From positions 1-40,745 of the forward strand of contig CAIZMQ010000148.1 in NCBI GenBank assembly GCA_903934135.1: a stretch of DNA of 40,745 bases, read 5' to 3'. A program made the position numbers and the translations under genes. The notes under the pieces were generated by a model. That model made no database searches and had not been told where the DNA came from. It saw only the letters and a list, made by a program, of their open reading frames with translations. Of the stretch, positions 11,506-14,140 are shown piece by piece. The stretch comes from an uncultured Verrucomicrobiota bacterium. Lineage in GTDB: Bacteria; Verrucomicrobiota; Verrucomicrobiia; Chthoniobacterales; JACTMZ01. Position 1 is the stretch's first letter. The number at the start of each line of letters is the position of its first letter.

Positions 11506-12174
11506 ATGAATGCCCCCCTGCTCCATTGCCGCGAACTGCACTGCGTCCGGCCGCTATGGCGTGAAGGCGATTCGCACGTTCGGGGCGCGAACGCCGTCTT
11601 CCAATCCGGCCATTTTCATGCCATCAGCGGTCCGGAGGGCTGCGGAAAGAACCTCCTGCTCCATGTGCTCGGACTGCTCGAGCAACCCGATGCCGGCGAG
11701 GTCTGGCTCGGCGGGATCAACACCACAGAATTGCCGGCTCCCGCCCGCGACGCGCTGCGCCAGCGACATATCGGATTTCTTTTCCCGACCTGCGCCCTTC
11801 TTCCCTCGTTGAGCGTCCTGGAAAACATCGCCTTCCCCGTCCTCAAGGCCGGCGGCACGACCGAGGCCGAACAAGCCGAGCGCACGTTGTCCGCGCTGAG
11901 GTTTTGCCATCTGGAAGATCAGGCGGAGCAGCGGGTCGGCGATCTTCCACCCGCATCGCAGGCCGTGGCCGCCTTTGCCCGCGCCATCATCCACCGGCCG
12001 CAACTGCTCCTGGCCGAATCGCCCGCCGCCGAGGAACTTCTCGTTCCCCTCGCCCGCCGTGCCGTGGACGAACTCGGCCTCACCGTGGTCTGGGGTGCCA
12101 GGGCCGACGGACCGGCCTCGCGCGCCGCCGACCGCACACTTCAGATGACCGGCGGACGCCTTGAAGGCGCATGA
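11506..12174 (+). CDS. degenerate ABC ATPase-like protein (LolD/MacB type, probable pseudoenzyme)
   Basis: The 222-residue protein has the layout and length of a LolD/MacB-class ABC ATPase, but every catalytic motif is altered. Walker A is GPEGCGKN (42-49), with Asn in place of the Mg-binding Ser/Thr. The Q-loop Gln is Pro94 in FLFPT. The LSGGQ signature is replaced by LPPAS (147-151). Walker B, normally LLLADEPT, is LLLAESPA (167-174). The H-loop region reads VVWGARADG with no His. The frame is intact and of normal length, and its TGA overlaps the ATG of the downstream hpnD-like gene, so it is not a decayed pseudogene by appearance. No permease gene is adjacent. It may bind nucleotide weakly, if at all; the role is unknown. 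Start is the ATG before APLLHCREL; ATGs at 11488 and 11428 are alternatives. Confidence 0.75.
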   Translation: MNAPLLHCRELHCVRPLWREGDSHVRGANAVFQSGHFHAISGPEGCGKNLLLHVLGLLEQPDAGEVWLGGINTTELPAPARDALRQRHIGFLFPTCALLPSLSVLENIAFPVLKAGGTTEAEQAERTLSALRFCHLEDQAEQRVGDLPPASQAVAAFARAIIHRPQLLLAESPAAEELLVPLARRAVDELGLTVVWGARADGPASRAADRTLQMTGGRLEGA

Positions 12175-13001
12175 ATCCGCTCCTTCCGCCCGGATACCTC
12201 GATGCGGCGGCCATCGTCCGGGCCGGCAAGTCGAGCTTCGTGCCGGCCTTCCGCTTGTTACCCGCCGGCCGCCGCCATGACCTCGAAACATTCTACGCGT
12301 TCTGCCGCGTGGTCGACGATTTGGCCGACAGCGGGCCGCATCCGCCCGCGTTCCGCAGGGAAGCACTTGAGGCTTGGCGCGCGGGTTTCCGCGCCGCGGA
12401 CTTGTCGGGGTTGCCGGACAATCTCGCCTCCTTGATCCGGCGCCGCGACCTCGACCGGAGCCTTTTCCTCGAGTTGCTCGACGGCGCGGCCACCGACCTC
12501 GCCCCGCAAGTGCGCATGGCCTCGCGGTCCGAGCTCGACCTCTACTGCCACCGGGTGGCCGGAGCGGTGGGACAAATCTGCCTGCCGATTTTCGGCGCGG
12601 ACCCCCGCCGTGCGGCGGATTATGCGGAGACATTGGGGCGCGCGTTGCAATACACCAATATCCTGCGTGACACCGCCGCGGATCTCCGCCGCAAGCGCAT
12701 CTATTACCCGCTGGACGAGCTGACCGGCGCCGGGGTGGACCCCGCATCGTTTCCCTCTGGCGCGGGGCAATATTTTGCGAAATTCGCCGCCGAAACGGAG
12801 CAGCTTTTCGGAAAGGCCGCACGCCTTCAGCCTTCCGCCGATGCGCGCAACCTCCTTCCCGCCCGCATCATGGCCTCAATTTACCGTGCCCTTCTGGGAA
12901 AAATGCGGCGCGACAATTTACGAGTGACCGAAAAACGCTACCGCCTCTCCGCGCCGGAAAAGCTTCTCGCCGTGGCCCGCGCGCTGCTTCTGCCTCAATA
13001 G
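12171..13001 (+). CDS. hpnD: squalene/phytoene synthase family protein, HpnD-like
   Basis: A 276-residue head-to-head prenyl synthase that condenses two farnesyl diphosphates, most likely to presqualene diphosphate on the way to squalene and hopanoids or C30 carotenoids. The first Asp motif is VVDDLAD (Asp49, 50, 53) inside the family signature YAFCRVVDD. The second is NILRDTAAD (163-171), preceded by LGRALQYT and followed by RRKRIYYPLDEL. The late helix ARIMASIYRALL is also typical of HpnD. HpnC and CrtB are alternatives; the KSSF...LLP start is closest to HpnD. No other hopanoid gene is in the window. It overlaps the pseudo-ABC gene by ATGA and ends overlapping a convergent gene by seven bases. 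Confidence 0.85.
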   Translation: MNPLLPPGYLDAAAIVRAGKSSFVPAFRLLPAGRRHDLETFYAFCRVVDDLADSGPHPPAFRREALEAWRAGFRAADLSGLPDNLASLIRRRDLDRSLFLELLDGAATDLAPQVRMASRSELDLYCHRVAGAVGQICLPIFGADPRRAADYAETLGRALQYTNILRDTAADLRRKRIYYPLDELTGAGVDPASFPSGAGQYFAKFAAETEQLFGKAARLQPSADARNLLPARIMASIYRALLGKMRRDNLRVTEKRYRLSAPEKLLAVARALLLPQ

Positions 13002-14140
13002 CCGGCTTTTTTCAGCATGGTCGACACTCCCTTGGTGTTGTTGACCAAATTCGCCATGCGGAAGAAGACATGGCCGGAAGGACCGGAACCGACCGTGCGC
13101 GAGAGACCGACTTGCCGGACAATCTCCTGCGCGGGCCACCCCTGCTCGCTCATGCGGTAAGCAGCGATTCCGGGGTAAACCGGAACGCCCCGCGGGTTGA
13201 CCGACGGGCTGCGCCACCACTTGAGCAACTCAGTGAAACACTGGTCGGATTGGTCCTTCCAGTAAAGTTGCGGCGCGATGTAGTCGACCCAGCCGCTGCG
13301 CATCCACTTCAACGGATCGGCATAAATCTCGTTGAGCTGGTCGAGCCCGGCTTTGACCGTGGATGGCTGGCCTTTGGTGTAGATACCGAAAGGACTCACC
13401 CCGAAAACGATACCCGGACGCGCTTCCTTCGCCGCTTGGGAGGATCGCGCAATGAGGCGGTTCACATTGTCCCGGCGCCAATCTCCTTGCGACAGATCTC
13501 CGCCTCCCGAGCGATAGCGTTCGTAAGTTTTGCCGTCCGGCAGCTTTCCGACCGAAGGATACGGATAAAAATAGTCGTCGAAATGGATGCCGGCCACCGG
13601 ATAACGGCGGGCGAGGTCAGCGACCACCTTGACCACATGGTCCTGCACTTCGCGGGCCCCGGGGTCCATGCAGACGACTGAACCGACTTTGTAGGCATGA
13701 GATTTGTAGCGACGCGCCATATGATTGGTGGCGAGAGGTGCCCCGGCTTTGACCGAGGCGCGATACGGATTGAGCCAGGCATGGACGCGAATATCGCGTT
13801 TCCCCGCCTCGCTTATGCAGAAAGCAAGCGGATCATAACCGGGGTCCTCGCCTTGTGTTCCGGTAAGAAAGCGACTCCAAGGCTCCAGCGACGAACGGTA
13901 AAGGGCGTCGCCTTCGGGGCGCACCTGGAAAAAAACATCGGTCAGGCCGAGAGACTCGGCCGAGTCGAGAATGCGGATGAGTTCCGCTTTTTGTTCCGCG
14001 GCGGACAGGCCTTTTTTCGAAGGCCAGTCGAGGTTGTGCACGGTTGAAATCCAGGCACCGCGGAATTCCGCCTGCGCCGTAAGGGCGCACGCCACGCAGA
14101 AAACCAAGTTAAGCCACAATTTCAGTGCCGATTGCTTCAT
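12995..14140 (-). CDS. exported GHL10 family (DUF187) glycosyl hydrolase-like protein
   Basis: A secreted 381-residue protein with a Sec signal peptide (MKQSALKLWL start, cleavage after LTAQA near residue 24). The mature part begins EFRGAWISTVHNLDWPS, the hallmark opening of the glycosyl hydrolase-like 10 (YngK/DUF187) family. Other family features are VFFQVRPEGDALY, VHAWLNPYR, and GIHFDDYFYPYP with the likely catalytic acidic residues, then VSPFGIY and IAPQLYW. The TIM-barrel fold and action on a polysaccharide are inferred from the family; the substrate is unknown. Its start lies 32 bases inside the 3' end of argB, so it is probably read from the arg operon transcript. Its 3' end overlaps the convergent hpnD by seven bases. 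Confidence 0.88.
   Translation of the reverse strand: MKQSALKLWLNLVFCVACALTAQAEFRGAWISTVHNLDWPSKKGLSAAEQKAELIRILDSAESLGLTDVFFQVRPEGDALYRSSLEPWSRFLTGTQGEDPGYDPLAFCISEAGKRDIRVHAWLNPYRASVKAGAPLATNHMARRYKSHAYKVGSVVCMDPGAREVQDHVVKVVADLARRYPVAGIHFDDYFYPYPSVGKLPDGKTYERYRSGGGDLSQGDWRRDNVNRLIARSSQAAKEARPGIVFGVSPFGIYTKGQPSTVKAGLDQLNEIYADPLKWMRSGWVDYIAPQLYWKDQSDQCFTELLKWWRSPSVNPRGVPVYPGIAAYRMSEQGWPAQEIVRQVGLSRTVGSGPSGHVFFRMANLVNNTKGVSTMLKKAGY

Follow-up and report, generated by a model that had tools for sequence, protein, structure and literature searches.

A catalytically dead ABC protein of LolD ancestry, conserved beside an HpnD-type prenyl synthase gene in Chthoniobacterales

The window, that is, the whole stretch of 40,745 nucleotides from an uncultured Verrucomicrobiota bacterium that was analysed here, carries a gene for a degenerate ABC protein, pABC, whose neighbours are a divergent pgsA gene and an hpnD-like gene. 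The pABC frame is open from the ATG at 11506 to the TGA at 12172-12174 and encodes 222 amino acids, and its stop codon overlaps the ATG of the hpnD-like gene at 12171; the clean frame and the overlap, both reported in a preliminary description made from the sequence, were confirmed. A sigma-70 promoter scan of the pABC/hpnD region found none. The features are as follows.

11506-12174, + strand (end includes the stop codon): pABC, a 222-aa catalytically dead ABC nucleotide-binding-domain protein of LolD ancestry.
11629-11652, + strand: degenerate Walker A, GPEGCGKN, residues 42-49, from the alignment with intact paralogues.
11773-11838, + strand: most conserved pABC block by column information, residues 90-111, GFLFPTCALLPSLSVLENIAFP, the segment facing the Q-loop and coupling helix, with the Q-loop Gln lost.
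11938-11961, + strand: lost signature motif, GDLPPASQ, residues 145-152, from the alignment and column information.
12001-12024, + strand: degenerate Walker B, QLLLAESP, residues 166-173, from the alignment and column information.
12171-12174, + strand: ATGA stop/start overlap of pABC and the hpnD-like gene; almost every related pair in the order has the same 4-bp [AG]TGA overlap.
12171-13001, + strand: HpnD-type head-to-head prenyl synthase (Pfam SQS_PSY, 2.5e-54), with DDLAD and NILRDTAAD intact.

The Pfam family ABC_tran (PF00005) matches pABC at 1.5e-15 (58.4 bits against a cut-off of 25), while the best NCBIfam models, those for LolD/PotA, score about 92 bits, far under their cut-offs of >300 (for LolD, TIGR02211 at 91.8 versus 307.75 bits and NF008639 at 92.7 versus 360 bits). 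The AlphaFold2 model, for which a 39-sequence alignment served as input, is a confident nucleotide-binding-domain (NBD) fold (pLDDT 92.7, pTM 0.90). Searched with Foldseek, this model ranked LolD of LolCDE first (9rle, TM 0.89), with MacB and HrtA also among the closest solved structures, and a PDB profile search gave LolD as the best-matching solved relative as well (2e-52). An ordinary, intact LolD-like ATPase is encoded beside lpxC in the same genome, and pABC is therefore a separate, degenerate paralogue.

Alignment with intact paralogues showed that every loss of a catalytic motif noted in the preliminary description is real. In the window protein the Ser/Thr of Walker A is replaced by Asn, as it is in 10 of 10 congeners carrying pABC; the Q-loop reads FLFP, with Pro for Gln; LSGGQ is gone from the signature, which has become GDLPPASQ; Walker B, LLLAESP, has Glu for Asp and Ser for Glu; and the His of the H-loop is absent (VVWGARAD). 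The motifs are intact in control ATPases of the same and sister genomes. The comparison of orthologues proposed earlier reveals that the degeneration is shared: the full motif set occurs in 0 of 66, and an intact LSGGQ, Walker B Asp-Glu or H-loop was likewise seen in none of the 66 pABC-bearing genomes. Single elements do survive, as three members from family f10 retain the GKT P-loop (the textbook GxxxxGKT), one member retains the Q-loop Gln and several from family f6 retain Glu at the catalytic position. Motif decay has thus differed among lineages, and loss of the signature, the Walker B Asp and the H-loop is common to all.

Searches against related genomes and named GTDB genomes placed the window in Chthoniobacterales, an order of soil and freshwater bacteria. 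A scan of 213 Chthoniobacterales genomes, followed by inspection of the loci, found pABC in 66 of them (64 scoring more than 184 bits and two diverged copies, in G033 and G284). Named carriers of the gene include two isolates, Chthoniobacter flavus Ellin428 and Spartobacteria strain LR76. An HpnD-type gene adjoins pABC in 65 of these genomes, the exception being G270 (L197), so that the pairing anticipated from the window is conserved. Within the window's genus the pair is found in nine of ten other genomes (the tenth, G009, is 65% complete), and it recurs in families f5, f6, f7, f8, f10 and f11 of the order. In a phylum-wide sample of 388 genomes no pABC was found outside Chthoniobacterales at the threshold used, and the matches from other orders in that sample (L189, L191-L193) have intact motifs. 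In a tree built from 31 pABC sequences together with 24 canonical ATPases, all pABC fall into one clade (SH-aLRT 100), to which, with a midpoint root, LolD-type sequences of other verrucomicrobial orders are nearest. Recurrence of the same gene, overlap and degeneracy across 66 genomes is more than chance would give.

The protein is, moreover, under selection in its degenerate state, as had been supposed: pairwise within-genus dN/dS values (NG86) are 0.08-0.23 for pABC, not near 1, and 0.11-0.25 for hpnD, and specific pABC residues are conserved between families at about 30% identity. These data bear on two simple explanations. That every motif is broken in the window copy would suit a recent pseudogene or an assembly artefact, but this reading is vanishingly improbable and is ruled out by the shared degeneracy, the monophyly of an ancient clade and the purifying selection; the frame, moreover, is open in 66 of 66 genomes, and cultured isolates carry the gene. 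Alternatively, the frame might be a translated leader whose only role is to set hpnD expression, as the near-universal ATGA overlap could suggest. We regard this as extremely unlikely, since the low dN/dS extends over the whole protein and the residues conserved between families testify to selection at the amino-acid level, which rules out a leader function only. It is therefore well shown that pABC is a selected pseudo-ATPase tied to an HpnD-type gene. The interpretation given in the preliminary description is partly supported, with selection, shared degeneration and pairing upheld; the LolD ancestry, the additional membrane protein and the missing hopanoid genes described below lay outside what could be seen from the window.

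What selection protects in this protein can be judged from the information per alignment column in 39 pABC sequences set against 24 canonical ones. Each of the catalytic elements carries less information in pABC than in the canonical set: 2.18 versus 3.17 bits for Walker A, 1.55 versus 2.97 for the signature, 1.58 versus 2.26 for the Walker B/D-loop and 1.54 versus 2.24 for the H-loop. The reverse holds for residues 92-111, with the consensus G-F-[LV]-F-x2-P-x-LLPSFSVxENVAMP, which reach 3.09 bits per column in pABC versus 2.45 in canonical paralogues, a figure to be read with the bias toward this block of the 39-sequence set, part of which was fetched with an ENxAxP pattern. In the genomes recovered with the whole protein as query the block is equally present, with minor variants, in all 66. 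Conservation in pABC has thus moved from the ATP site to residues 92-111. In working ABC proteins this stretch, which follows the Q-loop, lies opposite the permease's coupling helix, and by analogy with those transporters we infer that in pABC it is a putative protein-binding site.

The remains of the P-loop allow for a different reading, in which pABC is a ligand sensor that binds ATP, ADP or prenyl diphosphate without hydrolysis and thereby switches HpnD activity. The P-loop Lys is retained in 34 of 39 family members and Gly42 in >90%, and the f10 proteins with GxxxxGKT would fit such a role. However, the Mg-coordinating Ser/Thr is replaced by Asn, Gly, His, Ala or Arg in most pABC, and the P-loop has been destroyed outright in several lineages (L046, L206, L215, L225) that still keep both the gene and the pair. 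Nucleotide binding is therefore dispensable and is not what selection protects, and we consider the sensor unlikely.

The partner had been described as a squalene synthase. The family assignment stands, as judged from the SQS_PSY match and from both Asp-rich catalytic motifs, in which D49, D53, N163, D167 and D171 are invariant in the HpnD alignment. The equivalog assignment does not, as the window protein scores 217.3 bits against TIGR03465, under the cut-off of 278.6, although the partner of pABC in C. flavus clears it at 281 bits. 'Squalene synthase' is therefore the name of a family here, with the activity only predicted. Neither HpnE (TIGR03467) nor squalene-hopene cyclase (PF13243) was found in four genomes of the window's genus (G000, G002, G003 and G010; G000 is 89% and G003 100% complete), which makes the label 'hopanoid' unsafe; the cyclase occurs in several relatives that carry the membrane protein MemX (see below), and hpnC does not adjoin hpnD in the window. 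On this sequence evidence the enzyme should be called HpnD-type, with no product assigned. A separate cluster in G000 (L153; G000:C37:5000-14000) combines a phytoene-synthase-like gene with a polyprenyl synthase and a beta-carotene 15,15'-dioxygenase (PF15461), which suggests carotenoid/retinal synthesis in that genome.

Many relatives, namely families f9, f4 and f13 and the genomes of 0.9 Mb, have HpnD without pABC, so that HpnD can evidently do without it. Two of these reduced, symbiont-like genomes (G017 and G027; L156:5776-6609 and L032) have the hpnD-type gene beside pgsA, with neither pABC nor MemX, and the product of the enzyme therefore seems important there; the reduced genomes also keep a second SQS_PSY gene (L155). 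A mirror-tree comparison of pABC with HpnD, given Der, yields a partial correlation of 0.33 that falls to 0.03 when G033 is left out; the signal comes from this one genome and does not establish co-evolution. In that genome (L046) pABC and HpnD are both strongly accelerated and the control protein Der is not. Between the window and locus L090 of a sister genome, positions 12006-13005 differ by one base per ~1000, versus 2.5% over the 12.7-kb region, which suggests recent recombination across hpnD.

A third gene occurs at this locus in many relatives. It encodes MemX, a polytopic membrane protein of about 390-450 aa found upstream of pABC in families f5, f8 and f10 and in part of f6 and f7 (L111:4537-5832, L098:4838-5986, L122:4800-5978 and others), often directly before it and sometimes overlapping. 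MemX was found in 14 of 38 relatives and in 13 of 236 genomes of the class, in no order other than Chthoniobacterales and at no locus other than that of hpnD. It matched no Pfam family, FtsX included, and no sequence relative was found in the PDB; its structure model is good (pLDDT 88.5), and the fold search with it gave no confident match, the best being TTYH and choline-transporter-like proteins with TM ≤0.32 on the query. A known permease was accordingly rejected as the identity of MemX.

The two accessory genes come and go in different combinations. MemX was not found in the window's genus, where pABC and hpnD stand alone, and family f9 and part of f4 have MemX and hpnD without pABC. In G270 (L197/L109), the sole such case among the 66 genomes, MemX and pABC have no HpnD gene adjoining, which suggests that these two proteins form a unit. 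In G020 (L104:5367-5987) the centre of MemX (model positions 51-327) has been deleted, with the ends left in one frame and pABC and hpnD intact. MemX as a required partner was ruled out, since the window's genus and several lineages of f6, f7 and f11 keep pABC without it. The presence states need seven changes for pABC and nine for MemX on the HpnD gene tree, which is unrooted, so that these counts do not distinguish gain from loss. We read the pattern as an ancestral MemX-pABC-hpnD triad eroded differently by lineage, with the window's genus having no MemX and others having lost pABC or both.

MemX also enters into the possibility that pABC is the dead half of a transporter heterodimer, paired with a working ATPase such as the LolD of the same genome and seated on a permease, either one of FtsX type or MemX in that role. 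The LolD ancestry, the retained coupling-helix segment, the upstream position of MemX in many relatives and the intact LolD-like ATPase beside lpxC all speak for it. In such a heterodimer, however, the signature of the dead half would serve the P-loop of its partner, and pABC has lost its signature too; MemX, moreover, resembles neither FtsX nor any other family or fold with confidence and is absent from the window's genus. This arrangement is, in our opinion, quite unlikely. Still less probable is a lipid carrier, in line with the lipid-handling role suggested in the preliminary description, that binds the hydrophobic product and passes it to the membrane or to the next enzyme: the gene is indeed paired with one whose enzyme should have a very hydrophobic product, but the pABC model is an ordinary compact NBD, and we know of no NBD that binds lipids in the manner of a carrier.

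The explanation that we favour, tentatively, from the conservation patterns and the gene order agrees with the scaffold suggested in the preliminary description: pABC may serve a membrane-associated HpnD-type synthase as a docking or scaffold subunit with no catalytic activity of its own. The ability of a LolD-type NBD to hydrolyse ATP would have disappeared in the ancestor shared by the Chthoniobacterales carriers, and the domain would then have been kept in this new capacity. Overlapping translation would set a defined ratio of pABC to HpnD, and the retained coupling-helix groove would grip a protein partner, which would be HpnD, plus MemX where it is present. The resulting complex could hold the soluble synthase at the inner membrane, the destination of its hydrophobic product. 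In the window's genus, where MemX is missing, pABC would act on HpnD either by itself or in concert with another membrane protein.

Pseudo-enzymes and half-dead ABC transporters are kinds already known, and few protein machines are conserved as strictly as the ABC ATPases. It is unusual for a stand-alone member of this class to be dead in all its carriers throughout an order and still be maintained by selection and linked to a single metabolic enzyme. This one offers a testable case of a motor domain turning into a scaffold, with C. flavus Ellin428 and strain LR76 available as cultured hosts. The pairing hints at a possible need of HpnD-type synthases for docking partners at the membrane, and it brings to light in MemX an unfamilied membrane protein with a likely role in triterpenoid metabolism. 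Searches of the open-access full-text literature yielded no account of a dead ABC domain that stands alone, outside recognised transporters, and is linked both to a prenyl synthase and to a membrane protein without an assigned family. It is conceivable, though we put this forward with more reserve than the docking role itself, that an ABC motor domain has left the transporter world and become, with the order-specific MemX, a dedicated membrane dock for a triterpenoid synthase, in a three-part MemX-pABC-HpnD module that resembles no ABC or isoprenoid system described so far.

Several known systems resemble parts of this one. The window partner belongs to the HpnD presqualene diphosphate synthase family of the HpnCDE squalene route, and its C. 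flavus counterpart passes the family cut-off; unlike in that route, the search of the window's genus turned up neither HpnE nor squalene-hopene cyclase, and in the window hpnC is not beside hpnD. With LolD and the other type VII or MacB-class NBDs (MacB, FtsE, HrtA and YbbA) pABC shares the full-length fold (TM ~0.85-0.89) and the segment after the Q-loop. It differs from this class in having no Walker A Ser/Thr, Q-loop Gln, signature, Walker B Asp-Glu or H-loop, and from LolD in that the adjoining gene encodes a prenyl synthase in place of an FtsX/LolC-type permease; the FtsX-like permease with an extracytoplasmic domain that defines type VII ABC transporters was not seen at the pABC locus. 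To our knowledge the nearest functional analogue is YbbAP-TesA, yet that is a working transporter. There, a LolD-class ABC protein serves a lipid enzyme (PMC12646458), which is a precedent for the proposed association of pABC with HpnD, but YbbA is a working ATPase that acts with an FtsX-type permease and a periplasmic hydrolase (PMC12646458), whereas pABC is dead. Its partner enzyme, unlike TesA, is expected to be cytosolic, and in the Pfam search MemX had no match to FtsX.

Asymmetric ABC transporters contain degenerate nucleotide-binding sites whose substituted catalytic residues are kept by selection, and pABC is likewise an NBD with substituted catalytic residues under selection. Half-dead ABC heterodimers of that kind nevertheless stay halves of transporters, with one composite site competent, whereas pABC has lost both halves of its would-be site and stands outside any recognised transporter.
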